Source: Actinomycetota bacterium
Lineage (GTDB): Bacteria; Actinomycetota; Acidimicrobiia; Spongiisociales; UBA5794
NCBI GenBank assembly: GCA_013151445.1
Contig: JAADIG010000008.1
Coordinates: 1 to 32,859, forward strand
Direction of reading: 5' to 3'
DNA length: 32,859 nucleotides
Both the position numbers and the translations under genes were made by a program. A model generated the notes under the pieces. The model made no database searches. It saw only the letters and a list, made by a program, of their open reading frames with translations, and had not been told where the DNA came from. Shown piece after piece: positions 6,306 through 27,059 of this stretch. Numbering within the stretch: position 1 is the first letter of the stretch; each line of letters opens with the position of its first letter.

Positions 6306-6734
6306 TCACCGCGATCTTTCGCGACCCGGTCGGGCGGCCTCCACACACTGGTGAAAGAGACGTTCAACGCCGTCATGGACCGCACCGACGACGACACCAA
6401 GCATGTCCTGATCAACGGAACCAGCGGGAACTCGCCCCGTGAGATAGATGTCATCGCGTCGGTCGAACGAAACCAGGGCTGGCCAGCTCGTGTGGTTGAA
6501 CTTCAGGAAGCGACGATGCAGTGTTGGATCATCGAGACGGCCGAACAGATACGCCTCGAACCGCAGGGTGATCTCGCCACAATCGAACCAGATCGTCGTT
6601 GCCTCGCGACAGTCCTGGACGATGCGCACCCCGCGACGTCCCTCAAGCTCACCCGCCCAGACAATGCCCGACTCCGGGTCGGTCGCCCACGCAGACGTTG
6701 TTGTGGCGACGAAATCCCACAGTGGCCGGTTCAC
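6306..6734 (-). CDS. YbjN-domain protein, last gene of the mshA operon
   Basis: A 142-residue soluble protein starting at a GTG that overlaps the mshA stop (GTGA). Its composition (beta strands with Trp, e.g. TIWFDCGEITLRFEAYLFG, then a helical C-terminus) fits the YbjN / type III chaperone-like fold. The position agrees with established gene order: in mycobacteria a YbjN-family gene follows mshA directly. The molecular role is unknown; YbjN-type proteins are usually taken as chaperone-like or stress-related. Family assignment rests on context as much as on sequence. Confidence 0.65.
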   Translation of the reverse strand: MNRPLWDFVATTTSAWATDPESGIVWAGELEGRRGVRIVQDCREATTIWFDCGEITLRFEAYLFGRLDDPTLHRRFLKFNHTSWPALVSFDRRDDIYLTGRVPAGSVDQDMLGVVVGAVHDGVERLFHQCVEAARPGRERSR

Positions 6735-7954
6735 AGGGCCTTGATCCCGTCATACAACTCAAGGAGTCGGTCCACCGTCTTCTCCCAGGAGAACTTGTGG
6801 GCGTTGGCGATCGCCTGGAGCTGCATGTGGGCATGGTCGTCGGGAGAAGAGAGGGTTTTGTCGATGGCCGCGGCGAACGCACTCGGCGAGTGCCCGTCGA
6901 TTAGGATCCCCGACTCCCCATCGGTGACAACGTACGGAAGGCCGCCGACGCTCGAAGCAATCACAGGCAGACCGCATGCCTGCGCCTCGGCCGCGACCAA
7001 TCCGAACGATTCACTGCGGCTCGGCATCAACAGGAGATCGGCACCGCGGTAGTAGGCGGGGAGGCGCTCGTGGGACTCCGGGCCGGTGAACGTCACGCGG
7101 TCGGCAATACCGAGGTCGGTCGCCAATGTCTGCAGCATGGCGAGTTCACTGTCACCTGCCGGACCGCTCGGTCCGCCGACGATCACGAGACGCACGTCAT
7201 CGATGCCACGGTGTGCGACCTCAGCCGTGGCGGCCACTGCAATGTCGAAACCCTTCAATGCCTGGATACGTCCGACACACAGCAGTGTCGGTTCATTGCC
7301 CCATCCCAAGGTTTGTCGCGCTTCATCCCGGCTACCGGGTGAAAACAGTGTGTGGTCTATTCCCGGAGGACTGATGCACAGGCGTTCGGGGGTCGCCCCG
7401 TAGTGGTCAAGGAGGTCGTCGAATTCATACGGTGTCGAAGCGACAACGCAGTCGGACTGCGCAATGGTGTTGAACTCGATGCCCTTGCGGATCTCCGATG
7501 CCGCAGGTTCGTCATCGCGGCGGTTGACATCTTTGACTCTCCCGAGAGTATGGAACGAGTTGGCCAGTGGGATTCCGAGGCGGTTCTTCAGACGGACGCC
7601 GGTTCTGCCGCTCAACCAGTAGTGGGAGTGTATGAGGTCGAACGTCAAACCCGACTCGTCGATCCAACGTTCAACACCGTCACCAAATTCATCGACGTGC
7701 TGCACCATATCGGCCATCGGTATTGGTCTTGTCGGTCCGGCTTCGATGCGAACGACGGTGTACAGCGGCGACACTTCTGCATCGATCGGCACCCCGGCCT
7801 GGCAGGCTCGTGTGAACACGACCACATGGATACCGTGCTCGGCCATCACCTGGGATAGCTCATCGATGTAGACGTTCATCCCGCCGGCGTTCCCAACTCC
7901 GGGTTGAAGCCGTGGCGAGGTGTGCATGCTGATAACGGCGAGTCGCGAAATCAT
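6731..7954 (-). CDS. mshA: MshA-like glycosyltransferase (mycothiol biosynthesis)
   Basis: MshA transfers N-acetylglucosamine from UDP-GlcNAc to 1L-myo-inositol 1-phosphate, the first committed step to mycothiol, the actinobacterial low-molecular-weight thiol. The 407-residue protein opens with HTSP..QPGVGNAGGMNVY, the MshA signature in the GT4 family. The C-terminal nucleotide-sugar domain has PSRSESFGLVAAEAQACGLPV, the E-x7-E motif. Length and architecture are normal for MshA (GT-B fold, two Rossmann domains). It overlaps the acetyltransferase gene upstream by ATGA and the YbjN gene downstream by GTGA. A different GT4 enzyme is possible, but signature and neighbour both favour MshA. mshB, mshC and mshD are not in the window. 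Confidence 0.87.
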   Translation of the reverse strand: MISRLAVISMHTSPRLQPGVGNAGGMNVYIDELSQVMAEHGIHVVVFTRACQAGVPIDAEVSPLYTVVRIEAGPTRPIPMADMVQHVDEFGDGVERWIDESGLTFDLIHSHYWLSGRTGVRLKNRLGIPLANSFHTLGRVKDVNRRDDEPAASEIRKGIEFNTIAQSDCVVASTPYEFDDLLDHYGATPERLCISPPGIDHTLFSPGSRDEARQTLGWGNEPTLLCVGRIQALKGFDIAVAATAEVAHRGIDDVRLVIVGGPSGPAGDSELAMLQTLATDLGIADRVTFTGPESHERLPAYYRGADLLLMPSRSESFGLVAAEAQACGLPVIASSVGGLPYVVTDGESGILIDGHSPSAFAAAIDKTLSSPDDHAHMQLQAIANAHKFSWEKTVDRLLELYDGIKAL

Positions 7955-12154: not shown

Positions 12155-13156
12155 CTAGAGAAACCAGCGGGCGGCCATCCAAAATGCGGCGACACCGACG
12201 GTCATCGAGTCGAGGCCTGTGAGGCGACCGGGTGATGTGGTGGTGTGGAGCACCTGATCGGTGCGAATAAGCGAGCCAATGGACCTCCCGGCGATCATGC
12301 CGAGGGCCGTGATGACGGCGACGAGTGCCGCCGCCGGCATCGAAATCCCCTTTGTAAGGAACGTTGAAGCGATGCCACCGATGAGGGCGGCACCGAGCGT
12401 CGCCGTATTGGCATCGAACGTGGAGACCTGTGCAGTCGGGTTGGTCTGACGGGTCGCAATCCAGACACCGAGCCCCGTCAGCCCGGCAACGAGCAGAAGC
12501 ATGCGGGTTTGTTCGAGCGAGGTGATGCGCACCATAACGAGGGACCCGCTGGCCAATGTCCCAACGACGGACAACGTTGCCGTGTGCGAAAGGTTTGCGA
12601 GGTTGCGATGGTTCGACCCGGTCACGGCCCATGCCATTGGCACGATTGCTGCTACCGAGACGGCAACGGCGACACCAACATAACCCCAGGCCCACGCAGC
12701 GTTGGCACCAAGGGCGGAGCCGATCATCGCCGCGGCCACGTTCACCCGTGCACCCCGTGTGCGCATCGTCTCGCTGACATCCCATACCCATCCGAGTACA
12801 CCACCGACTGCGAGGACGACCCATATGCCCGTACTCAATGTCAGGCCGAGCGCAAAGATACCCAGCACCGCGGCGGACAACACACTGTCGAGCGAGGGGG
12901 TGTTCGTCGATTGGGTGAGGGCACCTCCGGACACAGGAGGAATTAGCGCGATTTCGTCGCCGCTGCCTACGCGAGCGTCTCGGTTGGTCGGTTCACCGTT
13001 GAGCCAGGTCTGGGCGGTCGCAAGCCCCGCGAGGAAAACCTCACCGAACTGTGCTGCGGCCTGATCGAGCACCTCCCCGACAGTGTCGGCGTCGATATCG
13101 ACTGAAGATGTTCCTGCAGCCTCCCTGAGGGAAGCAAAGAGTCGTAGGGTCGCCAC
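12155..13156 (-). CDS. MoaD/ThiS-like domain fused to CdsA-like membrane domain
   Basis: The GTG at 13156 has AAGGA six bases upstream. Residues 1-78 are a MoaD-type beta-grasp domain: FASLREAAGTSS, WLNGEP, GDEIALIPPVSGG, with the terminal diglycine at G77-G78. Instead of stopping there the frame continues into about 255 residues with roughly eight hydrophobic helices. Near the end, AGRSIGSLIRTD and SPGRLTGLDSM resemble the CdsA (phosphatidate cytidylyltransferase) stretch PGHGGxLDRxDS, but with catalytic charges lost. No alternative start with a ribosome site lies at the junction. A sulfur carrier needs a free C-terminal Gly-Gly, so cleavage after G78 would be required for that role. The membrane-domain assignment is tentative. 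Confidence 0.65.
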   Translation of the reverse strand: MATLRLFASLREAAGTSSVDIDADTVGEVLDQAAAQFGEVFLAGLATAQTWLNGEPTNRDARVGSGDEIALIPPVSGGALTQSTNTPSLDSVLSAAVLGIFALGLTLSTGIWVVLAVGGVLGWVWDVSETMRTRGARVNVAAAMIGSALGANAAWAWGYVGVAVAVSVAAIVPMAWAVTGSNHRNLANLSHTATLSVVGTLASGSLVMVRITSLEQTRMLLLVAGLTGLGVWIATRQTNPTAQVSTFDANTATLGAALIGGIASTFLTKGISMPAAALVAVITALGMIAGRSIGSLIRTDQVLHTTTSPGRLTGLDSMTVGVAAFWMAARWFL

Positions 13157-13221: not shown

Positions 13222-14460
13222 CTATGGCCGAATCGTTGTCCGAACCTCACCGAAACCGATGCGCGGGGCTCCGCTGTCACCCGAGTGGCCGCGGATCAGT
13301 ACCTCGTCTCCGTCGAGGAGAAAGGACCGCTGGCTCCCGTCGGCAAGTGTGATCGGCTCTGCTCCGTTGTGTGTGATTTCGAGCAGGCAACCCAACGAGT
13401 CGGGGGTGGGGCCTGAAATCGTCCCTGATCCGTAGACGTCACCGGGATTAATGGCCGTACCGTTGGATGTGAGATGGGCTAGTTGCTGTGCCATCGACCA
13501 GTACATGTGGCGAAAGTTGGAGTCCGAGACCCGTGTTCCGTTGAGATCAACGCTGAGCGCAATATCAAATCCACCCTTGTTCGGTGTGGCGAGATGGGGC
13601 AGTGGTGTGGGTTCCTGGTCTGACAGGGGAACTCTGGCGTGCGCGAGGGCTTCGAGTTGCACGATCCAGGGTGCCATCGACGTCGCAAACGACTTTGCGT
13701 TGAACGGCCCGAGCGGTCGGTACTCCCACGCCTGCACGTCCCGAGCGGACCAATCGTTGAGGAGAGCGAGACCGAAGATGGTGTTCTCGGCGATCTCGAC
13801 GGGAATCGGTTTGCCATCGTTCGCTGGGCCGGTGACGAACGCCATCTCGAGCTCGAAGTCGAGTTTCTCCGTCGGGCCAAAAACCGGACCATCGGGGCGT
13901 GGAAGCTGCCCGTCTGGTCGGCGTAGGGCCGTCCCCGAGACCGATATTGTTGATGCCCGTCCGTGATACGCGACGGGGAGTTGACGCCAGTTTGGTAGCA
14001 ACGGTTCGTCGTCGGGACGAAACATGCGACCGACGTTGGTTGCATGGTGAATCGACGAGTAGAAGTCAACGAAGTCACCGACAGCGACGGGAAGATGCAT
14101 CGATACATCGGCCCGCGTTACGAGGGCCGAGTCGGCAACATCCGCAAGGCCTGCCGTGTCGTCGGTGAGGAGATGCGACAGTCGCGTGCGAACACGCTGC
14201 CAGGTGGGGTTGCCGAGAGCGAAGTATCGGTTCAGTGTCGATGCCGCGAACACGTCTACCGGGAGACCAAGCCCGTCGAGCAAGCCTCGTTCGTGGGTCA
14301 CCGCCAGATCAACGATCGCATCGCCGATCGCTATGCCGCAGCGAGTCCCATCCGTGTTGCTAAAGACACCGAACGGGAGGTTCTGAACGGGAAAGTCGGA
14401 GCCGTCGGGGATCGGGACCCACGATTCGAGGGAGGGCTCCAGGGTGGGATTCGGAGTCAT
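13222..14460 (-). CDS. fahA: Fumarylacetoacetase
   Basis: This enzyme hydrolyses 4-fumarylacetoacetate to fumarate and acetoacetate, the last step of homogentisate catabolism. The 412-residue length is normal. It shows the N-terminal SH3-like part and the catalytic domain with DFVDFYSSIHHATNVGRMFR, LPVAYHGRASTI, KLDFELEMAFV (metal-binding Glu) and LLNDWSARDVQAWEYRPLGPF, all highly conserved in FAH. Its ATG overlaps the stop of the upstream gene by ATGA and it is the last gene of the operon. Catalytic and metal residues appear intact. Confidence 0.95.
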   Translation of the reverse strand: MTPNPTLEPSLESWVPIPDGSDFPVQNLPFGVFSNTDGTRCGIAIGDAIVDLAVTHERGLLDGLGLPVDVFAASTLNRYFALGNPTWQRVRTRLSHLLTDDTAGLADVADSALVTRADVSMHLPVAVGDFVDFYSSIHHATNVGRMFRPDDEPLLPNWRQLPVAYHGRASTISVSGTALRRPDGQLPRPDGPVFGPTEKLDFELEMAFVTGPANDGKPIPVEIAENTIFGLALLNDWSARDVQAWEYRPLGPFNAKSFATSMAPWIVQLEALAHARVPLSDQEPTPLPHLATPNKGGFDIALSVDLNGTRVSDSNFRHMYWSMAQQLAHLTSNGTAINPGDVYGSGTISGPTPDSLGCLLEITHNGAEPITLADGSQRSFLLDGDEVLIRGHSGDSGAPRIGFGEVRTTIRP

Positions 14461-15401
14461 GTGGGTCCTTTCGGAAGCAGGCCAAGCGCCCGCAGTTCGT
14501 CGGTAGGCTCATCAAAACTACAGCTTCCGTACGATGGGAATCGAGTCGTGCGAATCCGTTGCAGGGACGGTACGTCGAGGAGGACGTCGCCAACGGAAAT
14601 GCCGGTCATGCCAACGGGGAATCCGCTGTCCGCGGTGACGTCGAGCGCAGCGATGATCGTGTCTCGCGACGCACCAACGTCAGCAAGCGCTACCGCGACG
14701 AGCAGGTTTATGAAACCGTGACGTTGCACACCAAGTTCATGCCAGGTGTGGTGGTACGGATGATGCAGCCCTGCGGTGGCCTTGAAGGGCACCCCGCTCG
14801 CGGCACAACCGATGACGAAGTCGGCCACCTCCGCTGACGACGGAAAGGCCTCGCTCGTTGTGCCGCCGGTGCGCAGTTTCGCTCCGAGTAGACGATGACG
14901 ATCAGCTGATGCCGCGGCGATCATCGGCAGAACCACACCAAGCCTGGCCCGCCATTCAGGAGTGCGAGGAATCTCGAAGAAGGGAACGATCGTGGGAGAT
15001 ATCGCACATACGGCATCGACGAAACCGTACAGCTCTGACACAGAGTCGGGGCCATCAATGTCGACGGGAAGCGGCACCTCAGCAAAGACAAACTGGACTG
15101 CGGAACCCATCTCAGCGGACATCACCTGCGTTGATGCAACAGCGCTTCCGAGGTCACCGTCGAGGATCACAGCTATCGGCCAGGTCGGTTCTCCTCTTCG
15201 CATCGTTGGTGCGAGTACGGATGCGAGTTCCACGAGGCGGCTCGCTGGCACGATAAACCGTGCCGCGATCCAGGAGTCGGGGGATTCTCGTATCGAGCGA
15301 TACTCCGCGACGGCATCGGCCATGGAGAGCGATGCCGGTGGGAACAGGCCGGCGTAGTCGATGAGACCTTCAAGGAGGACTCGGCGAGCGTCAACAAACA
15401 T
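14457..15401 (-). CDS. Conserved protein of unknown function in the homogentisate operon
   Basis: This 314-residue soluble protein starts two bases after the hmgA stop and overlaps fahA by ATGA, so it is made with both enzymes. I recognise no named family. Striking segments are DYAGLFPPA (15-23), KLRTGG (175-180), FKATAGLHHP (206-215) and a His cluster HHPYHHTWH (213-221) that could bind metal. Alternating strands and helices suggest a TIM-barrel-like fold. The operon holds homogentisate dioxygenase and fumarylacetoacetase but no glutathione-S-transferase-type maleylacetoacetate isomerase. This protein therefore occupies the position of the missing isomerase, which is an inference from context only. 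It could equally be regulatory or a hydrolase. Confidence 0.7.
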   Translation of the reverse strand: MFVDARRVLLEGLIDYAGLFPPASLSMADAVAEYRSIRESPDSWIAARFIVPASRLVELASVLAPTMRRGEPTWPIAVILDGDLGSAVASTQVMSAEMGSAVQFVFAEVPLPVDIDGPDSVSELYGFVDAVCAISPTIVPFFEIPRTPEWRARLGVVLPMIAAASADRHRLLGAKLRTGGTTSEAFPSSAEVADFVIGCAASGVPFKATAGLHHPYHHTWHELGVQRHGFINLLVAVALADVGASRDTIIAALDVTADSGFPVGMTGISVGDVLLDVPSLQRIRTTRFPSYGSCSFDEPTDELRALGLLPKGPT

Positions 15402-15403
15402 TG

Positions 15404-16561
15404 TTATTTCGTTCGCCAGGTTGTCAGATACGCCGGGTCCTCGCAGTCGAACCCTGAGGTTCCAATATCCAGCGGGCGGAAAGTGTCGATCATGACTGCG
15501 ATTTCCTCTGTTCCCGCCTTGCCGAGGCCAGCCTCGACCGACCCTGGTTGGGGCCCATGAGTATGCCCGGCGGGGTGTAACGACAGTGAACCCTGGGCAA
15601 TGCCCGAGCCCTTGCGGGACATGAAATCGCCATCCATGTAAAACAGGACCTCGTCGGAGTCAACGTTGGCGTGGTGATAGGGGACCGCGATGGCATCCGG
15701 GTGATAATCGTACAACCGTGGCACGAACGAACAGATGACGACATTGGGTGCCTCGAATGTCTGGTGAACGGGTGGTGGCTGATGGATTCTGCCGGTGATG
15801 GGTTCGAAGTCATATACCGAGAGTGTGTGTGGGTACAAACAGCCATCCCAACCAACGACATCGAAGGGGTGGTTCTCGAACACGAAACGCGACAGACCGC
15901 CACGGTGTTTCACCAGGACCGGCACTTCCTCACCGTCTTCGAGCAGCGGCTCGCTGGGTCCGTGGATATCTCGTTCGCAGAATGGTGCGTGTTCAAGGAA
16001 CTGGCCCGCCCGCGACAGGTAGCGCCGCGGAGGTGTGACGTGGCCCGTTGTTTCCAGGATGAGCGCACGAACCGTCTCCGAAGTGATGACCCAGCGATGG
16101 ATCGTTGACGCCGGGATGACGACGTAGTCACCGGTCTTGAATGCCAGCCTCCCAAACGTTGAATCGAGGTAACCATCGCCCTCCTCGATGAATACCAGTT
16201 CGTCGCCGATCGCGTTCTTATAGAGGTCCGAAGATGTCGAGACGTGGGCGTAGGAGATTCGACAGTCGTCGTTCCCCATCAGCAGATGGCGGCCTGCGAC
16301 AAGGTCCGAGGTAACGCCGAGTTTGTGAGAGCGGAGGTGGCGGGGGAGCAATGGTGTGTTGCGATGCAGTGCTTCGTGCTCGCTTGACAGTGATTCGATA
16401 CTGACAAGCGCAGTGGGACGGGTCTTGTGATAGAGCAGTGCCGAGTCGAAGGCGAAGCCTTCTTCGCCCATCAGCTCCTCGGTGTAGAGAGAACCGTCGG
16501 GCTGTCTAAAGATCGTGTGGCGCTTCGGTGGTACGTCTCCGACGGAGCGGTAGTGGGGCAC
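15404..16561 (-). CDS. hmgA: Homogentisate 1,2-dioxygenase
   Basis: It opens the homogentisate ring with O2 to give 4-maleylacetoacetate. The GTG at 16561 is preceded by AAGGAG inside the end of the regulator gene. The 385-residue protein is shorter than the animal enzyme (about 445) but keeps the cupin core: VPYHHANVDSDEVLFYMDGDF supplies the His and Glu iron ligands and SLHPAGHTHGPQPG the second His. HPFDVVGWDGCLYPHT and FEAPNVVICSFVPRLYDYHPDA are family segments. The gap to the regulator stop is two bases, so the genes are one transcript. Confidence 0.93.
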   Translation of the reverse strand: MPHYRSVGDVPPKRHTIFRQPDGSLYTEELMGEEGFAFDSALLYHKTRPTALVSIESLSSEHEALHRNTPLLPRHLRSHKLGVTSDLVAGRHLLMGNDDCRISYAHVSTSSDLYKNAIGDELVFIEEGDGYLDSTFGRLAFKTGDYVVIPASTIHRWVITSETVRALILETTGHVTPPRRYLSRAGQFLEHAPFCERDIHGPSEPLLEDGEEVPVLVKHRGGLSRFVFENHPFDVVGWDGCLYPHTLSVYDFEPITGRIHQPPPVHQTFEAPNVVICSFVPRLYDYHPDAIAVPYHHANVDSDEVLFYMDGDFMSRKGSGIAQGSLSLHPAGHTHGPQPGSVEAGLGKAGTEEIAVMIDTFRPLDIGTSGFDCEDPAYLTTWRTK

Positions 16562-16563: not shown

Positions 16564-17295
16564 CTATCTCCTTACAAGATCTTGATGCAGTAGGACGGTG
16601 GTTTCGTTGGCGGACAGCTGACGGGTCGCATGCGAGGCCGCCGCGACGATTGCGCCCGCGAGTTCGCCGAGGTGAGAGACTCGCTGAGATGGTGCGACGA
16701 TACCGATCGAAGCGATCGCAGCGCCGGTGGTGTCAAGAATCGGAGCCGCAACTCCAGTGACCCCCCGCTCAATCTCATCGTGTGACACCGCATAACCCCG
16801 TTTTCGAATCGATCGAATCTCGCCAAGGAGGGACGCGGAGGTGGCGAGTGCGTCGCGGTCGGGATGAAATGCAAGGATCGCACGCCCGTGGGCTCCCACG
16901 GTGAGTTCGTAGGCAGAACCGACGGCGTAGTCGATCCGAACCATGCGACCGAGCGCCATCACCTGGTCTGCGGCGACGGCTTGGTTGCCAACAGGTAGGG
17001 CCACGAGTGCGGTTTCATTCCAGGTGGCGGCAAGGTTCGTGAGTGTCGGTCGCAATGCGTTGACCAGGGCACCGGTGGCGCGGTGAGCGAGTTCGAGTAC
17101 ACCACGGCCGAGGACCCACCCGGCCTCATCCCGATACACCATGTCGAATTGTTCAAGAGAATGCAGGCACCGCAACACCGCCTGCCGGCTTGTTCCGAGG
17201 TCGAGGGCGAGGCCGGTTGCGGTCGGATTCGGCGCATCGGGAACGCGGCGGAGAACCTCGAGGGCGAGGTTGACAGTTTTCGACGATTCGGCCAT
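16564..17295 (-). CDS. IclR-family regulator of the homogentisate operon
   Basis: I chose ATG 17295 (243 residues); the frame extends to 17439 but that would cover the operator. The N-terminal winged helix-turn-helix spans about residues 8-65 (VNLALEVLRRV, TATGLALDLGTSRQAVLRCLHSLEQFDMVYRD), and the C-terminal effector domain contains YELTVGAHGRAILAF, RKRGYAVSHDEIERGVTGVAAPILD and ASIGIVAPSQRV, typical of IclR. IclR proteins respond to small aromatic or organic acid ligands; homogentisate or a pathway product is likely from context. As the first gene of the operon it probably controls its own synthesis through the palindrome just upstream. Confidence 0.9.
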   Translation of the reverse strand: MAESSKTVNLALEVLRRVPDAPNPTATGLALDLGTSRQAVLRCLHSLEQFDMVYRDEAGWVLGRGVLELAHRATGALVNALRPTLTNLAATWNETALVALPVGNQAVAADQVMALGRMVRIDYAVGSAYELTVGAHGRAILAFHPDRDALATSASLLGEIRSIRKRGYAVSHDEIERGVTGVAAPILDTTGAAIASIGIVAPSQRVSHLGELAGAIVAAASHATRQLSANETTVLLHQDLVRR

Positions 17296-17315
17296 GTGGC
17301 AAGCGTAGAACGTAC

Positions 17316-17351
17316 GTCCGAAAATCGCAATCAACCGTCCGTATATCGGAC
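17316..17351. promoter_or_regulatory. Probable IclR-type operator pair
   Basis: GTCCGTATATCGGAC (17337-17351) is an inverted repeat with perfect 5-bp arms around an AT-only centre, the usual IclR operator size. A second GTCCG half-site, with AAAATCG after it, begins at 17316, exactly 21 bp (two helical turns) from the first. Both lie 21-56 bp before the regulator ATG, in the place expected for autoregulation. Confidence 0.6.
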
Positions 17352-17554
17352 AGTCACCTGATCGGATGAACCATTTGGGCCCACGATTCGGGGTGCGATA
17401 AGCGGGGCCGGGGAATGAGGACATTCGTTCGTGGGTCATACTTGTGCGGTAGACAGGGAACTAGCCCTTTCGACCAACCAAAAACGGGTCTATCGGTGTG
17501 CCCCGAAGTGGCCTACGGTGGTTACGGGTGCGGTAAGGAAAAGGAAGTGCTGGT

Positions 17555-18271
17555 GTGGCAGCGCAAGTAAAGTCGCCAAACGTAGTCATCCCGTTGCAGG
17601 CCCTCTTTGAGGTCATGAGCGACGGGGTCTTAATCACTGATGCTCGCGGGCAGCGGTCGTACGCTAATCGCGCGCTCAATGAACTAGTCGGGGGTGATGC
17701 CCGCGCTCCCTTCGGATCGGTCGAACCGCCCGTATGGCTCTCGGAGGATCAACATGACCGCTACCAGGCGCTCGTTACATCCGTCAGCAAGGGTGGCCTC
17801 CATGATGCGACGTTGTCCTTGGAGTGGACCATTTTGTGCGAGGGTGGTCGACAGCGGCCCGTGTCGATTCAGCTCATCCCGATGAACGGTGCCGGGTCGA
17901 GCATCGCAGCCTTGCTGTGGCTCGTGATCCCCTCCGAACCCGACCTTGCCGTCAGCGGCCCGGGGCGGCTCGCACATCTGGAGGAGTCTCTGCGGCGCAT
18001 CGCAGCCGAAGTAACCCGAGCTGGACTCGACGTTTCTCACGTGATCAACACCAATTCGTTGGATCATGAAGAGCTTGCGGTGCTGTCGCGACGCGAACGC
18101 GAAGTGCTCCAACAACTCCTCGACGGTCACCGTGTTGTGTCGATCGCCAAGAAGTTTGAAGTATCCGAGCACACGGTGCGCAACCACATCAAGTCAATGT
18201 TCCGCAGGCTCGACGTCCACTCGCAGGCAGAGTTGGTTTCTTTGGTCCGCGACCTTCAGACTGGTGGCTGA
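17555..18271 (+). CDS. PAS-LuxR transcriptional regulator
   Basis: A 238-residue protein from a GTG with AAGGAAG (17540-17546) eight bases upstream. Residues about 10-125 form a PAS-like sensory domain (LFEVMSDGVLITDARGQRSYAN, a standard PAS opening). A linker with helical character leads to a LuxR/GerE helix-turn-helix at about 178-235: LSRREREVLQQLLDGH, IAKKFEVSEHTVRNHIKSM, RRLDVHSQAELV. There is no receiver domain, so it probably senses a ligand, redox state or light directly. It is the first gene of a tight plus-strand set with HMG-CoA lyase 28 bases downstream. Confidence 0.9.
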   Translation: MAAQVKSPNVVIPLQALFEVMSDGVLITDARGQRSYANRALNELVGGDARAPFGSVEPPVWLSEDQHDRYQALVTSVSKGGLHDATLSLEWTILCEGGRQRPVSIQLIPMNGAGSSIAALLWLVIPSEPDLAVSGPGRLAHLEESLRRIAAEVTRAGLDVSHVINTNSLDHEELAVLSRREREVLQQLLDGHRVVSIAKKFEVSEHTVRNHIKSMFRRLDVHSQAELVSLVRDLQTGG

Positions 18272-18299
18272 CGCCCCCGCCGGCACTACTCTTCCCCCT

Positions 18300-19214
18300 A
18301 TGGATGTGCAGCTTGTAGAGGTCGGGCCCCGCGACGGGCTCCAAAACGAAGCCGTAATTCTTGACACCGAGACCAAGGTATCGCTGATCGACAAGCTTGT
18401 CGACGCCGGTGCGACCCGCATTGAGGTTGCGTCATTTGTGCATCCAAGGCTCGTCCCCCAAATGGCCGACGCCGAGGCCGTCTGCGAGGCATTGGCGGGT
18501 CGCCCCGATGTTTCCTACATCGGACTTGTGCTCAACCAACGCGGACTCGAACGCGCTCTCGAGACGAACGTGAACGAAGTGAACATGGTCGTGGCGGCTA
18601 GTGAAGGGTTCAACCAGGCGAACCAACGCACCCGAGTCGCGGATACATTGGCGGAAATTGAACGCATGGTTCCAATCGCAAGAAGTGCGGGCCGGTCAGT
18701 TTCAGTGACGATTAGCGTCGCATTCGGCTGCCCATTTGATGGCGAGGTCGATCCCAACCATGTCGTCGACCTTGTCCGTGCGGTGGCCGCGACGGGCCCA
18801 GATGAAGTCGCGCTTGGCGACACAATCGGTGTCGCTGTACCCAGTGACGTGACAGTGCTTGTCCCGCGGATACAGGCTGTCCTCGATGGAGTGCCGCTCA
18901 GATTGCACTTTCACGACACCCGTCGCACGGGTCTTGGCAACGTCGCAGAGGCCCTTCGTCTCGGTGTGCGCACCATCGACGCTTCCGTTGGTGGCTCGGG
19001 AGGATGCCCCTTTGCGCCGAAAGCGACAGGCAACGTCGCCACTGAAGATGTGTTGTACCTGCTCGACCGCTCCGGTTTCAGTCATGGACTCGACCCGGGT
19101 GCTGTGGTTGCCACGGGTCGCTGGTTGGGGACCCAGCTTGGCGTCGATCTTCCTGCGGCGATCGCACATGCCGGCATGTTCCCCGTCGGCCAGGGTCCCA
19201 CGAGTCTGGAGTAA
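18300..19214 (+). CDS. mvaB: Hydroxymethylglutaryl-CoA lyase
   Basis: It cleaves HMG-CoA to acetyl-CoA and acetoacetate, ending leucine breakdown. The 304-residue TIM barrel starts at ATG 18300; no clear ribosome site is visible, and a GTG at 18264 is an in-frame alternative overlapping the previous gene. VEVGPRDGLQNE carries the catalytic Arg-Asp pair (R11, D12), LHFHDTRRTGLGN the metal-binding His pair, and GGSGGCPFAPKATGNVATED the signature loop with the active-site Cys. Acetoacetate is also released by the fumarylacetoacetase encoded nearby. The related family includes other acyl-CoA lyases, so substrate is likely but not certain. Confidence 0.87.
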   Translation: MDVQLVEVGPRDGLQNEAVILDTETKVSLIDKLVDAGATRIEVASFVHPRLVPQMADAEAVCEALAGRPDVSYIGLVLNQRGLERALETNVNEVNMVVAASEGFNQANQRTRVADTLAEIERMVPIARSAGRSVSVTISVAFGCPFDGEVDPNHVVDLVRAVAATGPDEVALGDTIGVAVPSDVTVLVPRIQAVLDGVPLRLHFHDTRRTGLGNVAEALRLGVRTIDASVGGSGGCPFAPKATGNVATEDVLYLLDRSGFSHGLDPGAVVATGRWLGTQLGVDLPAAIAHAGMFPVGQGPTSLE

Positions 19215-20530: not shown

Positions 20531-20548
20531 TTGTGAAAAACATCACAA
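20531..20548. promoter_or_regulatory. Rex operator overlapping the rex start codon
   Basis: TTGTGAAAAACATCACAA fits the 18-bp Rex consensus TTGTGAA-N4-TTCACAA with a single mismatch (A for T at the seventh base from the right end). The rex GTG start (20533-20535) lies inside the left arm, so bound Rex would block its own transcription or elongation. This indicates autoregulation by NADH/NAD+ ratio. Confidence 0.75.
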
Positions 20549-21168
20549 TCCCATCAGCGACAATCTCGCGTTTGCCGGTATACCTTCGGTCACTCGGTGA
20601 TATGCCGCCGAGCCAGGCGACGATCAGCTCCGAGCAGCTCGCCCAGATCGTCGGGTTGAATTCCGCTCAAGTCCGTAAGGATCTCTCCTATTTGGGAGCT
20701 GCCGGTGTGCGAGGTGTCGGATATGGGGTTGCCGAACTCAGGGTGGACCTTCGCGAGGCTCTCGGCCTGACCCACGGGTATGGGGTTGCCATCGTGGGAG
20801 CGGGGAACCTCGGGGCGGCGCTGACGAACTACGGCGGCTTCGAGGCATGGGGGTTCGAGATGAGTGCCATCTTTGACACCGATAGCGAAAAGATTGGTAG
20901 TCGCATCGGAGATTTGGTGATCGAGGACCTCAACGACCTCCCTCGGATCGTGGAGCAGCGCGACATCGCAATCGGGATCGTGGCGACCCCGGCGAGTGGT
21001 GCTCAGGATGTCGTGAACCGATTTGTCGCTTCGGGGGTGCGATCGATCCTTAACTTTGCTCCCTCGATCGTTCAGGTGCCCTCCGACGTTGTAGTGAGAC
21101 GAGTCGATCTTTCCACGGAACTCCAGATACTCACCTATCACTTGCACCACGATGAGGCGACCGGGTAA
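20533..21168 (+). CDS. rex: Redox-sensing transcriptional repressor Rex
   Basis: Rex binds DNA when NAD+ is high and releases when NADH rises, controlling respiratory genes. The 211-residue length is standard. The N-terminal winged helix (ISRLPVYLRSL, SSEQLAQIVGLNSAQVRKDLSYLG) is followed by GVRGVGYGVAEL and the NAD-binding Rossmann start VAIVGAGNLGAAL; the C-terminal swap helix ends the protein (ELQILTYHLH). The GTG start lies within its own probable operator. The convergent respiratory operon downstream is separated by a shared terminator. I found no second clear Rex site near the respiratory promoters. Confidence 0.95.
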   Translation: MKNITIPSATISRLPVYLRSLGDMPPSQATISSEQLAQIVGLNSAQVRKDLSYLGAAGVRGVGYGVAELRVDLREALGLTHGYGVAIVGAGNLGAALTNYGGFEAWGFEMSAIFDTDSEKIGSRIGDLVIEDLNDLPRIVEQRDIAIGIVATPASGAQDVVNRFVASGVRSILNFAPSIVQVPSDVVVRRVDLSTELQILTYHLHHDEATG

Positions 21169-21218
21169 CGATCCGGCTATCGGTTCACCCGTACATAAGC
21201 GGCTTGCCCGCACATACG

Positions 21219-21243
21219 AAAGACGCCGGATTCGGCGTCTTTT
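21219..21243. terminator. Bidirectional terminator between rex and the respiratory operon
   Basis: AAAGACGCCG (21219-21228), loop GATT, and CGGCGTCTTT (21233-21242) make a perfect 10-bp stem with T-runs reading both ways. It lies about 50 bp after rex and about 30 bp after the end of the convergent membrane protein gene, serving both. Confidence 0.9.
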
Positions 21244-21270
21244 CTTATTGTCAAACGAATCGGGTGGACG

Positions 21271-21771
21271 TTAGATGTCCGATTCCTTTTCGTATTTGTC
21301 GAGGGCGACGACAAACATGACAAACAGGATAAGTGAGGCAACGGCAAGACCGATCGCCGGAATCCTGATTTCGATTGACCCGAGGCCAACGACACTTGAG
21401 GGGCGGAGACCACGTGGTGCGTAGACGACAAAGAGCATGGAGCCGATCGTGAGCCACCCGAAGAGGGCGGCACCGGTCACGAGCATCCCAAGTCGTTTGC
21501 CGAGATTGGTGTAGACCAACAGGAAACCCGATCCAACGAACGCCACGATCGACGTGATCGCGACGAGGATACCGCGAGCGGCAGTCGAGAATGTGGTTGT
21601 TGCACCCGACTCGTCGACCGACTTGAACAGTTTGGTGTAGATATCGCCGACGAGTCCGCGAGCTGCCGGGATGAATGCCAGAAACGAGATGATGATGGCA
21701 ACAACACCGAGCTTTTCAAGGCCCGTCAGGCCACTTTCGTCGCGGTGGATGCGTAGGGCGAGCCGGATCAC
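21271..21771 (-). CDS. Four-helix membrane protein, last gene of the bc operon
   Basis: A 166-residue protein from a GTG overlapping the dihaem cytochrome stop (GTGA). Hydrophobic segments lie at about 20-42, 66-88, 96-118 and 137-157; loops carry no metal-binding motif. The N-terminus, RDESGLTGLEKLGVVA, resembles a prepilin peptidase site (Gly before L-T-G-L-E with Glu at +5 and a hydrophobic helix after it), though three further helices make a pilin unlikely. I know no family. Its fixed place at the end of a cytochrome bc operon suggests an accessory subunit or assembly factor. Confidence 0.72.
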   Translation of the reverse strand: MIRLALRIHRDESGLTGLEKLGVVAIIISFLAFIPAARGLVGDIYTKLFKSVDESGATTTFSTAARGILVAITSIVAFVGSGFLLVYTNLGKRLGMLVTGAALFGWLTIGSMLFVVYAPRGLRPSSVVGLGSIEIRIPAIGLAVASLILFVMFVVALDKYEKESDI

Positions 21772-23357
21772 ATTGACCTCTCGTAGATAGCTATGAGCTC
21801 GATGTCGCGTTGGGTGAGCATTTTTCCGAAACCGGGCATCCGCCCGGTACCGAGACCGTTGACGCCGTAGGATTGACCCGCATCGGTTCCCTTGAGGATG
21901 AGCTTCACGTGGTCCTCAAGCCTCAGGAACTGCTGGTTCGCCTTGCCGCCGAGAAGCGACGGACCCCAGGCACCCGAGCCTGGCTTCTGCTCATATCCAA
22001 CACCGGCCGAATACCCCCCGGTATGACAGCGGGCGCAGAAGGCGTTGTACAGCCCGACCGCACGCTCGGCCTCGTCCGCAGAAAGACCGGTGTCGGCTGC
22101 TACCTGGCCGAAGTCGACGAACCACTGCCGGTCGGACGCCGCCTGAACGAGATACTCCATTGACGCCAGTGCGGTTGCCTCAAACGCCTCGTTGCGTTCC
22201 GCCGTAACCTGGAGGTTGACATGGCGGGCGCCGAACACCGTGAGGAACGAATCGACGGCATCGATGTCCTTGATCGGGGAGCCGGAGGCTGCGGTGGTTG
22301 AGTAGGCGTTTGTCGGATCGAGGATGATGCTGAGTTGTGGACTCTCGACGAAGACGATTTCGCCCTGGGAGTTCACGGTGCGGGTCTGAAGCTGTTCGAA
22401 CGCGACCTTTGACATGTCGTTGAACAAGGCTTCCGCCTTGTCTGTGATACCGTCGCGATCGGTATCCGTGCCGGGAGACCCACATGCTCGGTCGACAAGA
22501 GCGGCCGATGCGTTGGTGCATGTTCCGTCACCACCGAGAACGGCACTCAGCCGCTCCGGGAAGTCGCTGATGGGGGCGAAGCGTGATGGCGCCTCAGCAA
22601 TATCGTCGATCAGGGCCTGTTGCTCGAGAATGAGGGTGGCGAGCGCCTCGTCACCGGTAGCCATACGGTTGAGGGCGGCTTGTACTGCCGGTTCTATTTT
22701 CCTGAGAACGTCGCCCTGGGTGATCTCGAACGACTTGATGTACGCCATCACCTGCTCGACCTCTTGCCAGGTCATTGCGCCACCGCCGGGTATACCGTTT
22801 GCGGGCATTGGCGTTCCCTGGCGACCGTGGTTGATGATATTTTGAATCTCAAGATCGTTAAAGCGGTAGAAGATGTCGTTGAGCGACGGTGCCCCCCACG
22901 ACACGCCCAGACCAGAGCGGGCTTCGACAAACGGGGCTCCACCGCCGACACCAAGGTCGGCGTGACAGTTTGCGCAGGAGAACTCATTGAACCAGCGTTC
23001 GCCCTCGTCGACATTCCTGTCCTGGAGCGCCTCCGCAGCGCTGATCTGACGCCCCGACTCGTTGACGTAGTAGATGGGGAGGACAAGAGCGAGTACTGCC
23101 GCGGCAACCATCGCAGCTCGCAGCACACGATTCAGTTTGGTGGTTTCGAGTTCATCGTCCGACAGATACGGCTGGAGGTTCAGTGCAGTTTCTTCCCCAC
23201 CCGACGACGGACGTGCGGCGATCCACAACCAGGCCACCCACGCAATAAAGACTGCGGCAGCAACGATGAGCAGGATTGCACCGATCCCCACATTCGGAGG
23301 GCCGGTGCGCGTAGGGCGCGCTTCGACAAAGTAGTACAGCGCTTGGATGGGTGTCAC
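21768..23357 (-). CDS. Membrane-anchored dihaem cytochrome c subunit of the bc complex
   Basis: The GTG at 23357 overlaps the Rieske stop (GTGA). Two helices (about 25-48 and 80-98) come first, unlike QcrC, which has one C-terminal anchor. Haem c sites are C128-x-x-C131-H132 (CANCH) and C441-x-x-C444-H445 (CARCH); likely axial Met residues sit in GTPMPANG and GRMPGFG. Between them are about 300 residues including DTDRDGITDKAEAL, an EF-hand or thrombospondin-type calcium loop, and Cys residues that could pair. It probably takes electrons from the Rieske centre to the periplasmic acceptor. The two cytochrome modules are far apart in sequence, so this may be a fusion of two ancestral monohaem proteins. 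Confidence 0.85.
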   Translation of the reverse strand: MTPIQALYYFVEARPTRTGPPNVGIGAILLIVAAAVFIAWVAWLWIAARPSSGGEETALNLQPYLSDDELETTKLNRVLRAAMVAAAVLALVLPIYYVNESGRQISAAEALQDRNVDEGERWFNEFSCANCHADLGVGGGAPFVEARSGLGVSWGAPSLNDIFYRFNDLEIQNIINHGRQGTPMPANGIPGGGAMTWQEVEQVMAYIKSFEITQGDVLRKIEPAVQAALNRMATGDEALATLILEQQALIDDIAEAPSRFAPISDFPERLSAVLGGDGTCTNASAALVDRACGSPGTDTDRDGITDKAEALFNDMSKVAFEQLQTRTVNSQGEIVFVESPQLSIILDPTNAYSTTAASGSPIKDIDAVDSFLTVFGARHVNLQVTAERNEAFEATALASMEYLVQAASDRQWFVDFGQVAADTGLSADEAERAVGLYNAFCARCHTGGYSAGVGYEQKPGSGAWGPSLLGGKANQQFLRLEDHVKLILKGTDAGQSYGVNGLGTGRMPGFGKMLTQRDIELIAIYERSM

Positions 23358-24223
23358 AGGCAGGATGGTCCTTGTGGGTAGGCGACGCTTTTCACCGGTG
23401 CTCGTGAGGTTTCGATGATCGTCCCGGTATCGATGATGAGGTTATTTTCTGCGTCGATAGTAACCCTGAACCGGTCCATGTTGCGAGGTGCGGGACCCTC
23501 GATGTATTCGCCGTGAAAGTTGTATTTAGAGCCGTGGCACGGACACTCGAATCCCTGGGACGGGAGACATTCGGGGACGCGACAGCCGAGGTGCGGACAG
23601 CGATGCCAGATCGCCATTATCCCTGGCTCGGCGCCTGCCCCAACGATCACCGTATCTGCGACATCCGCCAGGATGGACTTCGACACGTCACCGCGAAACG
23701 GCACAATCCAGGCCTGGGCCGCAGGAATCGGTTTCGGTTTGATCGTACCGTCGCTCTGAATCACTTCGGCGCGCAGGTCATCAATATTGCCGGCGGAGAC
23801 TGGGGTTCCAAACCCGCCCTTGAGTTTCGGCCACAGGAAGGCGAGCGACGCCAGACCGAAAAAGCCGAGTGAAGCTCCGAAAAAGCCCAGGATCGCCCGG
23901 TTGAAAAACATTCGGCGGTTGACGCCATATTCCTCGGCAGAAATAGTCTCGCGTTCCATGAGAGGATCGGGTATTGGTTCGGTGTCTTCGGGAGTCTCTG
24001 CGAGAACGACCGTTGCAGAACCGGTTTCGTCGGTCGATGCCGCCGCTCGTGCGCGTGCCGCAGCCTTGCGTGCCGCCCGTTCTGCCTTTGCGGCCCGGCG
24101 GTCGAACGACCCGGTGACGGGACCAGCGCTGGGTCCCCTGTTGAGTGCGACGCTCAAAACGGCCGCAACGACCAGGAGAGTGACCAGGGCGATACCGATT
24201 ATGAAAGTGGTTTGAGCATCCAT
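23354..24223 (-). CDS. Rieske [2Fe-2S] subunit of the bc complex
   Basis: A 289-residue protein with cluster motifs C209-x-H211-LGC214 and C227-P-C229-H230: the two Cys/His pairs bind the cluster and C214 and C229 can form the usual disulfide. GEYIEGPAPRNMDRF follows as in classical Rieske proteins. A first helix lies at about 5-27, a Lys/Ala-rich stretch (AAKAERAARKAAARARAAAS) at about 44-63, and a second helix at about 112-130 before the soluble domain, resembling actinobacterial QcrA with extra N-terminal helices. The ATG overlaps the cytochrome b stop by one base (TGATG). Confidence 0.93.
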   Translation of the reverse strand: MDAQTTFIIGIALVTLLVVAAVLSVALNRGPSAGPVTGSFDRRAAKAERAARKAAARARAAASTDETGSATVVLAETPEDTEPIPDPLMERETISAEEYGVNRRMFFNRAILGFFGASLGFFGLASLAFLWPKLKGGFGTPVSAGNIDDLRAEVIQSDGTIKPKPIPAAQAWIVPFRGDVSKSILADVADTVIVGAGAEPGIMAIWHRCPHLGCRVPECLPSQGFECPCHGSKYNFHGEYIEGPAPRNMDRFRVTIDAENNLIIDTGTIIETSRAPVKSVAYPQGPSCL

Positions 24224-25056
24224 CAGAAGTCGAAAAATATCCCATCTACCCAGGGGAACGTGAAGTTGAATCCCGGGCCTCGGAAGAACGAGCCATAGGT
24301 TGTGAGAATGGCTGCCCCCATGACGAAGAATGTAAAGATCATGATTGCTAATTTTCGGTCGGACGGTCGGACCGAAGGGTTCCGATCGAGATACGGAATG
24401 AACGCCAAACCGGCCAATCCGTAACCTGGAATAATAATACCAGCAACCATTGGATCAAAGTAAGACAGCAATTCCTGCAATCCGAGGAAATACCAGGGCG
24501 CTTTCGACGGGTTCGGTTGCTGGTTGAAGTTCGCAAACTCCAACAACGGCGCATCGACGTAGATCGAGAATACGAAGAGCAGGCCGGTGAGCACCAGCAA
24601 TGCGACAAACTCGATAGCGAGAAGATGTGGCCAGGTATTCACCTTGTCGGCCGGTTCACGCTTCGTCTGTTGGATCGCACCCGCCTTGACGACGGTCAGC
24701 AGACGTTGTGTGCGGACACCCTCGGGAATCGTGGGAATCGGGGCCGGGGATCCGGCCGCCACGGGTGCAGTCCCGGCAGCCGCCACGGGTGCGGCCCCAG
24801 GCTCACCTGGTATTGGCGTGCCATCCTTTTTCGCCCTGGCGATCATCGCCCGGCGCAAAAGATCCTCGGGGACGCCAAGGTCGGCAGACTCCTTCGCCAG
24901 GTCGCGAACCGGTCCCGAACCCGCCGATGGTGCTCCAGCAGCTGGGGGAGGTGCTTCACCCTTTAGTTCGGCGAGAATCTCCTCGACTGGGCGCCCGGTT
25001 GCCTTGGCCTTTGCCTCGGCCGAGCGACGAAGAAGATGTTCTGGTAGTCCTGCCAT
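24223..25056 (-). CDS. Cytochrome b C-terminal (subunit IV-like) subunit with N-terminal tether repeats
   Basis: ATG 25056 has AGGAGA six bases upstream. Residues about 140-277 are a three-helix cytochrome b C-terminal domain like subunit IV of b6f. The Qo motif is KAPWYFLGLQELL instead of PEWY, a variant I associate with menaquinol-type complexes. Uniquely, the first 110 residues hold two copies of a small helical motif: GLPEHLLRRSAEAKAKATG (3-21) and GVPEDLLRRAMIARAKKDG (61-79), joined and followed by Ala/Pro/Gly-rich linkers. A third copy is in the cytochrome c encoded at 29173. The arrangement suggests a flexible docking segment. No haem ligand is expected in this half. Confidence 0.9.
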   Translation of the reverse strand: MAGLPEHLLRRSAEAKAKATGRPVEEILAELKGEAPPPAAGAPSAGSGPVRDLAKESADLGVPEDLLRRAMIARAKKDGTPIPGEPGAAPVAAAGTAPVAAGSPAPIPTIPEGVRTQRLLTVVKAGAIQQTKREPADKVNTWPHLLAIEFVALLVLTGLLFVFSIYVDAPLLEFANFNQQPNPSKAPWYFLGLQELLSYFDPMVAGIIIPGYGLAGLAFIPYLDRNPSVRPSDRKLAIMIFTFFVMGAAILTTYGSFFRGPGFNFTFPWVDGIFFDF

Positions 25057-25064
25057 CGTGTCTC

Positions 25065-25838
25065 CTAGAGCGGCCCTGAGATACCGCCATCTTTACGGAC
25101 CCGCCAAAAGTGGACGGCCATAAAGATGACGATGACGAACGGTAAGAACAGAACATGGAGCACATACCAACGGAGCAAGGTGTCCGGGGTGATTTGTGTA
25201 CCACCGATCAGGGCGAAACTGACCTGGTCTCCAATCACCGGTGCGTAGCGTCCCATGTTGGAACCCACGGTGACGGCCCAAACAGCAAGTTGGTCCCACG
25301 GCAGCAAGTAGCCGGTGAAAGACAGCAACAGCGTGAGCAGCAACAGCACGATGCCGACAACCCAGTTGAACTCCCGTGGCGGCTTGTACGCCCCGTGGTA
25401 GAACACCCGTGCCATGTGGAGGAACACCGTGAGCACCATTGCGTGTGCTCCCCAGCGGTGCATATTTCTCACCACTTGACCGAACGTTACGTCGGTTGCC
25501 AATGCCTGGATATCGAGGAACGCCTGCGGTGACGTCGGCCGATAATAAAACATCAAGAAGATACCGGTGATCGTCAGCAGGATGAACAGGAAGAAACTCA
25601 ACCCACCCAGGCACAACGTATAGGAGAGGCGAACACCGTGGCGCTTCACCTTCACTGGATGAAGGTGATAGAGCACGTTGTTCATGATCACGTATGAACG
25701 ATTTCGTGGTGTATCGGAGTACCCGTCACGAAACGGCGAGCCGGGTCGGAAAATGCTCGACCATGCCTGACTGGACCTGATGTGTTGTCCAGTCTCGGCA
25801 AGCTTTGACATGATGCCGCCTTTGTCTTTGCCGCTCAC
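25065..25838 (-). CDS. Cytochrome b6-like subunit with extra haem cysteine
   Basis: The GTG at 25838 has AGGAG a few bases before it. The 257-residue protein holds the four-helix haem-binding half of cytochrome b. Haem ligands are H127/H228 and H141/H243, spaced 14 and 15 as in b6. [12 protein letters not shown] places C76 exactly 51 residues before the first ligand, as Cys35 is in chloroplast b6, where it fixes haem c(n) by one thioether. [36 protein letters not shown] and [10 protein letters not shown] are all b6-like. The subunit oxidises menaquinol with the partner encoded 8 bases downstream. Confidence 0.95.
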
Positions 25839-25867
25839 CTATGCTCCTCGTCTGCTGCTCTCTCATG

Positions 25868-25883
25868 CGGCGCCGCGGCGCCG
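25868..25883. promoter_or_regulatory. 16-bp perfect GC palindrome between ferredoxin and cytochrome b genes
   Basis: CGGCGCCGCGGCGCCG is its own reverse complement. It occupies the only sizeable gap (65 bp) inside the bc operon. As RNA it would fold into a short stable hairpin, possibly for processing, attenuation or differential expression of the ferredoxin pair against the cytochromes. It could also be a methylation or restriction-rich accident. Confidence 0.4.
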
Positions 25884-25903
25884 GAAATCTTGCTATTCAT
25901 CGG

Positions 25904-26347
25904 CTACCAACGGATCCCGTACATGTAGCCATTCTTGAAATCTCGTTCCCCAGTGTCGTGCTCCCAGGGTGCCGTTTCAAACTCGGCGAGTTTATCGGAG
26001 ACCGACCCGGAAAACTTGCCGAGGCTGATGACACCGGTTGGGCAACGGTCGATACATAGTTGGCAACGGGTGCAAACGTCCTCGTCGACGATGAAGAACC
26101 CACCGTTATCGGGGTTGTCCTCGGGGTGGTCGACATTGACACCCTCCGATATGGCATCGAGGGAGAGGAAATGGATACATTTCCATGGGCAGATGTCCAC
26201 GCAGCCTTCGCAGATGATGCACTCGGCCTCGTTGATGTGGAGGAACTGCTTCGGTTTGACGGCGTTGACAAGGTACGCCCCTTCAACGACCGCCAGCTGG
26301 TAGTCGTCGCGAATTGGGGGTAGGTCCTGCCAGACATCGTTCGCCAT
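25904..26347 (-). CDS. 2x[4Fe-4S] ferredoxin in the bc operon
   Basis: A 147-residue soluble protein with two complete cluster motifs: C43-x2-C46-x2-C49-x3-C53-P and C92-x2-C95-x2-C98-x3-C102-P. The first resembles CIICEGCVDICP; an extra C57 follows. The region between the motifs (about 55-90) is long and acidic. No twin-arginine or other export signal is present, so it is likely cytoplasmic, on the side of the cytochrome b haem c(i) position. It begins three bases after the upstream membrane protein gene. Ferredoxin subunits are not standard in bc complexes; it could feed or draw electrons at the N-side quinone site. That role is inferred. Confidence 0.9.
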   Translation of the reverse strand: MANDVWQDLPPIRDDYQLAVVEGAYLVNAVKPKQFLHINEAECIICEGCVDICPWKCIHFLSLDAISEGVNVDHPEDNPDNGGFFIVDEDVCTRCQLCIDRCPTGVISLGKFSGSVSDKLAEFETAPWEHDTGERDFKNGYMYGIRW

Positions 26348-26350
26348 GTC

Positions 26351-26959
26351 CTACTTCTCCTGCTTCACCATCGGTCGACCGAATGCAGAGATCGGAGTTA
26401 CCGGACCGGTTTCGCGGCGCTTCTTTTCGTAGGTCTGCCACTTCGACATCGCTACCGGGACCGCAATGAGCAGGTTTCCGGTTAAGCCGGCAACGATGAC
26501 CTCCTTGAGAACGGCGTAGGAGATGGAGATATCGTTGTTGAGTGCGAGAATTCGTGGGACGGTGAACAGGGTCTTCTGTGATGACCAGTCGAGGTCCGCT
26601 TGAGCAATCGTGAGGAGTTGGTTCGGAATGACACCGAAGAGGAGCATCATGACCGAGGTGAATACGAAAGCTCCGATCGCCGCACGCGCCCAGGTGAGTG
26701 GACGCCGGTAGAGGAAAGCGAGCGAGATCCCACCGAGGATCATGAAGACGCCGCTCACCGAGATGGTCTGGACAAGAGCACGTATTGCCCAACCGCGGGG
26801 CACCGCGGGGTAGAGCTCCCGCCCGACTGAGTCAGTGGCGGGAAGTGACACGAAATGCGAGGCAACCGCTCCTGCAAGACCAGTGAAAGCACCGACAACG
26901 GCTATCGCCACACCAGCGAGGAGAAACATCCGCAGTTGCTTTGTGCTCAGGGCAATCAC
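26351..26959 (-). CDS. Four-helix membrane protein, first gene of the bc operon
   Basis: A 202-residue protein with helices at about 12-34, 61-83, 93-113 and 148-172 and a basic cytoplasmic tail. I recognise no family and no metal-binding motif. The start is uncertain: a GTG at 26959 lies inside AGAGGTGAT, itself a good ribosome site, so true initiation may be at the CTG at 26950 five bases beyond it, or at ATG 26929 without support. Its stop is three bases from the ferredoxin ATG. It may anchor the ferredoxin to the membrane complex. Confidence 0.72.
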   Translation of the reverse strand: MIALSTKQLRMFLLAGVAIAVVGAFTGLAGAVASHFVSLPATDSVGRELYPAVPRGWAIRALVQTISVSGVFMILGGISLAFLYRRPLTWARAAIGAFVFTSVMMLLFGVIPNQLLTIAQADLDWSSQKTLFTVPRILALNNDISISYAVLKEVIVAGLTGNLLIAVPVAMSKWQTYEKKRRETGPVTPISAFGRPMVKQEK

Positions 26960-27059
26960 CTCTTCGTGTGTCGTTTGGAGATAGGGCCTCGGATCCCTAC
27001 CGGTTGTGTCGGCACGCGCATTCTACGCATGAGAAGGCCCGGGGGAAATTCATGCCCTT

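Follow-up and report, generated by a model that had tools for sequence, protein, structure and literature searches.

Textbook schemes of tyrosine breakdown show maleylacetoacetate being converted to fumarylacetoacetate by a glutathione-dependent isomerase, the zeta-class glutathione S-transferase (GST) MaiA/GSTZ1 (EC 5.2.1.2, TIGR01262), which stands in the pathway between homogentisate 1,2-dioxygenase (HmgA) and fumarylacetoacetase (FahA) and in which glutathione is the adding thiol. In the gentisate pathway, cis-trans isomerisation of a maleyl ketone, chemically the same task, is carried out without glutathione by the DinB/MDMPI maleylpyruvate isomerase, which depends on mycothiol. For maleylacetoacetate itself, a glutathione-independent isomerase was reportedly described in Gram-positive bacteria by Hagedorn and Chapman in 1985; the activity is thus already known but its gene, as far as we found, is not, and we know of no gene that has been assigned to it.

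Glutathione-independent activity on maleylacetoacetate in a Bacillus strain is also recorded, with maleate as the product, in the part of the 2022 review PMC9338888 that cites Crawford (1976), and a maleate product fits hydrolysis of the cis isomer, not isomerisation. In B. thuringiensis, where the operon reads hppD-fahA-hmgA, the genes for maleylacetoacetate isomerisation could not be identified according to a 2018 paper (PMC6193087). Here we describe an uncharacterised gene, termed X, as a specific candidate for the decades-old orphan Bacillus activity.

A gene between hmgA and fahA

The window (the whole stretch of actinomycetotal DNA analysed, 32,859 nucleotides) contains a homogentisate operon and, apart from it, a mycothiol biosynthesis gene:

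16564-17439, minus strand: IclR-family regulator, first gene in the operon (PF01614, 66.4 bits, over the cut-off)
15404-16561, minus strand: hmgA, homogentisate 1,2-dioxygenase of a divergent bacterial type (PF20510, 29.8 bits)
14457-15401, minus strand: gene X, uncharacterised protein of 314 amino acids with an ATG start (open reading frame and translation)
13222-14460, minus strand: fahA, fumarylacetoacetase (TIGR01266, 497 bits, cut-off 375.3)
6731-7954, minus strand: mshA, D-inositol-3-phosphate glycosyltransferase (TIGR03449, 406.9 bits, slightly below the cut-off of 462.5)

The first-pass annotation of this DNA had described X, without giving a strand, as lying between hmgA and fahA with a 2-base gap on one side and a 4-base overlap on the other, and this is the arrangement found: hmgA is upstream of X on the minus strand, 2 bases away, and the 3' end of X overlaps fahA by 4 bases. 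The hmgA product scores 29.8 bits against a PF20510 cut-off of 20.2 and just 48.5 bits with TIGR01015, and is 49-59% identical to the homogentisate 1,2-dioxygenases named by RefSeq at two plasmid loci (L165, L166). No zeta-class GST isomerase is encoded in the homogentisate operon of the window, as had been noted, and the absence extends to the window's genome (98% complete), in which TIGR01262 has no match at E<=0.01. The mshA gene, which the first-pass annotation had also noted in the window, would imply that mycothiol is the cell thiol of the organism.

Searches of X against Pfam, NCBIfam and PDB sequences gave no credible match at E 1 to 10, and neither TIGR01262 nor any GST model of NCBIfam or Pfam matched it up to E 1. 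Its relatives on plasmids are annotated as 'hypothetical protein' by RefSeq. An identity as amidohydrolase (PF04909) was considered and set aside: the match is weak and confined to 4 of 53 family members (best E 3e-4), the other 49 have none, and the fold search leads to deoxyribose-phosphate aldolases (DERA). Comparison with the closest relative (L002, 77% identity) gave dN 0.13 and dS 1.29, and this dN/dS of about 0.10 indicates a constrained coding gene under purifying selection.

Several other features of the window deserve record. A few genes away from the homogentisate operon is a gene (18066-19214, plus strand) for hydroxymethylglutaryl-CoA lyase, another enzyme that produces acetoacetate. 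Positions 12155-13156 (minus strand) encode an unusual fusion of an N-terminal MoaD-like ubiquitin-fold domain with a remainder resembling a multi-pass membrane protein. A respiratory cluster occupies 20533-29163. Its b-type cytochrome (25065-25838) exceeds the cut-off of ExtP, a model from the selenite/tellurite operon, and it further encodes an ExtQ-like protein, a Rieske protein and a fused protein of 661 aa (27178-29163) that resembles cbb3-type oxidase subunits I/II. The gene for the redox regulator Rex is near by (20533-21168).

Linkage to the homogentisate pathway and occurrence relative to maiA

Relatives of X, spanning 23-77% identity, were found in at least six phyla and almost entirely inside homogentisate operons. 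They occur in genomes of the window's phylum, Planctomycetota, Rhodothermales (Bacteroidota) and Gemmatimonadota, and on plasmids of Bacillota (Priestia), several actinobacteria and one cyanobacterium (Kovacikia), the 24 X-bearing plasmid records comprising Streptomyces (11), Priestia (6), Pseudonocardia (2), Rhodococcus (2), Nonomuraea (1), Kovacikia (1) and Tsukamurella (1). No relative was found in the phages searched, nor did the structure model of X match any BFVD viral structure at E 0.001. The first-pass annotation had tied X to mycothiol; the family extends to Bacillota, Bacteroidota, Planctomycetota, Gemmatimonadota and a cyanobacterium, so that mycothiol is not what its members share, and that link is not supported.

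Linkage of X to hmgA, fahA or hppD is conserved across phyla. In all 18 search loci that hold a complete X and its flanks (L001-L019 without L013), fahA adjoins X. Where both genes could be reached, in 72 loci, X precedes fahA on one and the same strand in all 72, at most 300 bases away in 71; these 72 loci were fetched with short flanks, so the count describes linked copies. Looser arrangements also occur: X stands beside hppD and hmgA with fahA far off in genome G475, X is 3 kb from fahA in some Bacteroidota, and for five X genes (four from Planctomycetes and one from genome G279) no pathway gene was recognised within about 6 kb. On the Priestia aryabhattai plasmid p-LAD4 (L165, NZ_CP072477.1, 83232-94146) the order is hppD-X-fahA-hisC (aminotransferase)-hmgA-permease, a tyrosine cassette that is complete save for an isomerase and in which X fills the sole empty slot. 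An Lrp/AsnC-type regulator lies near this cassette. The divergence of X correlates with that of fahA (r 0.80; best of 1000 permutations 0.15), a parallel that partly reflects shared species history. Given that relatives in several phyla adjoin fahA and that dN/dS is low, the X locus is more than a chance arrangement. We regard X as almost certainly an enzyme of homogentisate (tyrosine/phenylalanine) catabolism.

X was compared with maiA across fahA-bearing genomes. In the sample of the window's phylum, 34 of 296 genomes carry fahA, 15 of these 34 carry X and none has maiA over cut-off; all 15 genomes with a full-length X fall among the 34 (hypergeometric P ~3e-16). A further 78 fahA-bearing genomes from three phyla included 66 with X and one with maiA, that one without X. 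Together, the 112 fahA-bearing genomes tested for both genes, from four phyla, comprise 81 with X, none with both and, despite the textbook schemes, just one with maiA over cut-off (G604). By phylum, X was present in 30 of 30 fahA-bearing Gemmatimonadota beyond the seed, in 11 of 12 Planctomycetota (seed included), where the exception is the maiA genome, and in 29 of 74 Bacteroidota, a count that includes lower-ranked genomes since the 30 best-scoring fahA genomes alone over-represent X. Plasmids follow suit: fahA was found on 119 plasmid records, those listed being mostly proteobacterial, and X on no proteobacterial record; for Streptomyces and for Priestia, the number of records with fahA equals the number with X (11/11 and 6/6). 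This is the pattern that non-homologous replacement of the glutathione enzyme predicts.

We consider it probable that X is a maleylacetoacetate isomerase working without glutathione or another thiol cofactor, the reaction being suggested by genomic context. An isomerase of non-GST type, perhaps thiol- or metal-dependent, had been proposed for this gene from the window alone; the occurrence of homologues in homogentisate operons, and the absence of maiA over cut-off from every X-bearing genome tested, sustain the first part of that proposal; the mycothiol and metal parts are not supported.

Many fahA-bearing genomes have neither gene. Within the window's phylum, 19 of the 34 lack X and none of the 19 has maiA over cut-off; among Bacteroidota, 45 of 74 lack X, and maiA was absent from all 11 of these that were tested for it. 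Examples are G361, G376, G031 and G017 (L182-L185), and G031 has hmgA, fahA and hppD in a row with no isomerase gene among them. Because such genomes are numerous, the maleylacetoacetate step must be doable in another way, with thiol-driven spontaneous isomerisation, another isomerase or tolerance on the part of FahA as candidates; and because the step is evidently doable without X, X need not be an isomerase.

This last point bears on a reading that we judge unlikely, namely that X acts in the homogentisate pathway by clearing a side product (succinylacetoacetate, quinone-acetate or an imine adduct, for example) or by helping FahA, with isomerisation left to spontaneous or thiol-driven chemistry. 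It draws on the many genomes without both genes and on the glutathione-dependent non-enzymatic bypass in mice described in the part of PMC9338888 that cites Fernandez-Canon (2002). An accessory protein would, however, serve every pathway, yet X is missing from the proteobacterial fahA plasmids; it is also missing from the sole maiA-bearing fahA genome, as a replacement would be, and the isomerase step is the only one that the Priestia cassette lacks. Far less probable still is that the actinobacterial isomerase is a mycothiol-dependent DinB-type protein encoded elsewhere in the genome and that X is unrelated to the step. Mycothiol-dependent maleylpyruvate isomerases are known in actinobacteria, and on two Streptomyces plasmids a protein with such a domain is encoded about 4 kb away from X-fahA, but X also sits beside fahA in four phyla that are not known to use mycothiol (Bacteroidota, Planctomycetota, Gemmatimonadota and Bacillota), and the ten genes scanned next to X-less fahA in five genomes include no DinB domain and no alternative isomerase.

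Predicted fold and conserved residues

An AlphaFold2 model of X built from six sequences is an alpha/beta TIM barrel over its full length (pLDDT 88.9, pTM 0.89), and a second model from the same six sequences, led by a Phycisphaerae relative, agrees (pLDDT 87.7). The best Foldseek matches in the PDB are deoxyribose-phosphate aldolases (E 2.6e-5). Structure comparison by VIA placed DERA first for the first model (Z 16.4, rmsd 3.6, 227 aligned; first non-DERA 13.0) and gave DERA a Z of 15.7 for the second, where pyruvate kinase barrels reach 13.8. X is thus predicted to have a DERA-type TIM barrel; matches to such barrels are frequent, and sharing a fold does not by itself show function. Profile comparison with DERA by hhalign was not significant (E 0.42 and 0.15, probability <1%); its short aligned pieces pair K175 with K167 once and K207 with K201 in both comparisons, pairings that are likewise not significant alone. 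No DeoC or LacD family model matched any of 53 X members.

The conserved positions, counted in alignment columns of 53 X relatives, include the following:

15357-15359, minus strand: codon of Asp15 on strand 1, invariant in the 53 relatives and at the likely position of DERA Asp16
14862-14879, minus strand: KLRTGG motif, residues 175-180 (Lys175 in 51/53, Arg177 in 53/53)
14760-14786, minus strand: FKATAGLHH motif, residues 206-214 (Lys207, Thr209 and Gly211 each in 53/53)
14517-14528, minus strand: GSCS motif, residues 292-295, on strand 8 (Cys294 in 52/53, Gly292 in 53/53)

In addition, Glu143 is present in 53/53 and residue 108 is Glu in 52/53 and Asp in one, its match to DERA Asp102 following from strand order only. 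The model places Lys175 on strand 6 (173-177), where E. coli DERA has its Schiff-base Lys167, and an imine role for Lys175 is putative; Lys207 falls on strand 7 (206-209), where DERA has Lys201, and GSCS on strand 8 (291-293), apparently where DERA has GASS (Gly-Ala-Ser-Ser). Along strands 1, 4, 5, 6, 7 and 8, Asp15, Glu108, Glu143, Lys175, Lys207 and GSCS of X would accordingly correspond to Asp16, Asp102, Glu141, Lys167, Lys201 and GASS of DERA.

The first-pass annotation had singled out KLRTGG and FKATAGLHHP as conserved-looking loops, which in the 53 relatives they are to a high degree, and had taken them, together with a histidine cluster, HHPYHHTWH, as signs of an enzyme that might depend on a metal or a thiol. 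His213 and His214 of that cluster are conserved (52/53), but His217 (CAC, 14751-14753) is unique to X of the window, with Arg in 51/53 relatives and the codon CGT in L002, the nearest of them (77% identity), which also has Asn in place of H221. With just two of its histidines conserved in the 53 relatives, a metal site built from this cluster was rejected, and the predicted barrel with conserved lysines likewise weakens the idea of metal dependence.

In predicted fold and lysine pair X resembles a class I aldolase, and a cleaving role must be weighed: X might be a lyase or hydrolase acting on maleylacetoacetate, or an aldolase-type enzyme with a related diketone as its substrate, in which case the pathway would skip the isomerase. 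The Bacillus route to maleate and acetoacetate given by the review PMC9338888 points the same way. Such a route would make fahA superfluous, yet fahA is nearly always paired with X, and we hold cleavage to be improbable.

Two copies depart from the conserved pattern. X of L009 (1501-2430, plus strand), from the window's own family and next to fahA, has Lys175 replaced by Ala, His213 by Asp and Cys294 by Arg, and X of L021 (1387-2328, minus strand), also next to fahA, has lost both lysines. These copies are possibly decaying or altered. The residue losses may mean that function was lost where a thiol suffices or that a mechanism based on these residues is wrong; the occurrence in operons of copies such as that of L009, without Lys175 and Cys294, also counts towards a side-product or FahA-assisting role.

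Proposed mechanism and comparison with known systems

If X is the isomerase, it would act on the maleylacetoacetate that HmgA produces and supply FahA with its substrate, fumarylacetoacetate. From the residues we tentatively propose a lysine-imine mechanism, which we rate as somewhat less likely than its converse. Lys175, aided by Lys207, Glu108, Glu143 and Asp15, would form an imine with the ketone at C4 of maleylacetoacetate. This would polarise the conjugated C2=C3 bond, making it a strong Michael acceptor, to which Cys294 (or water) would add reversibly at C2. Rotation about the C2-C3 bond, elimination of Cys294 and hydrolysis of the imine would then yield the trans isomer, with the conserved Arg and His residues perhaps holding the substrate carboxylates. 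The lysine and cysteine pair would in this way do the job that glutathione does in the zeta-GST isomerase. The titles of PDB entries 7p76 and 9fd8 describe engineered DERA variants that form imines with unsaturated aldehydes and serve as catalysts of Michael additions, so the scaffold is capable of such chemistry.

The full proposal, to which we give slightly under an even chance, is that X represents an unrecognised family on a DERA scaffold, present in at least six phyla, which performs cis-trans isomerisation through a lysine imine and an internal cysteine and supplies the gene of the orphan glutathione-independent isomerase. If true, it would show an aldolase scaffold in an unusual role, that of cis-trans isomerisation, and 'hypothetical protein' annotations and pathway gaps would be corrected in many genomes. 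We found no paper in the literature searched naming both maleylacetoacetate isomerase and deoxyribose-phosphate aldolase.

For each of MaiA, DinB and DeoC, defining features were looked for in X and found missing, in the case of DeoC the match to its sequence family, and X is therefore assigned to none of them. MaiA/GSTZ1 shares with X the proposed reaction and the place in the pathway but is glutathione-dependent and has a GST fold, whereas X is unrelated in sequence, is modelled as an alpha/beta barrel and is proposed to act free of glutathione; the thioredoxin-like and all-helical GST fold is not what the X model shows, its best PDB matches being barrels. The DinB/MDMPI maleylpyruvate isomerase is a mycothiol-dependent four-helix bundle, whereas X is a predicted barrel that also occurs outside mycothiol users, and no MDMPI_N or DinB Pfam match was found in 53 X members.

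DERA (DeoC, a class I aldolase) is the closest solved fold and, like X as modelled, has lysines on strands 6 and 7, an Asp on strand 1 and Gly-x-x-Ser on strand 8; by strand order alone, an acid on strand 4 would also correspond. It differs in having no significant sequence similarity to X, in Asp102 where X has Glu108, in a strand 8 Ser where X has Cys, and in the absence from the aligned DERAs of the His213-His214 pair and Arg177 conserved in X; its context is nucleoside catabolism, that of X aromatic catabolism. The glutathione-independent isomerase activity of Gram-positive bacteria has both the reaction and the cofactor independence proposed for X, and Bacillus megaterium, now Priestia megaterium, has plasmids on which X and fahA occur together, an analogy from which we infer that X may be the gene behind that activity.
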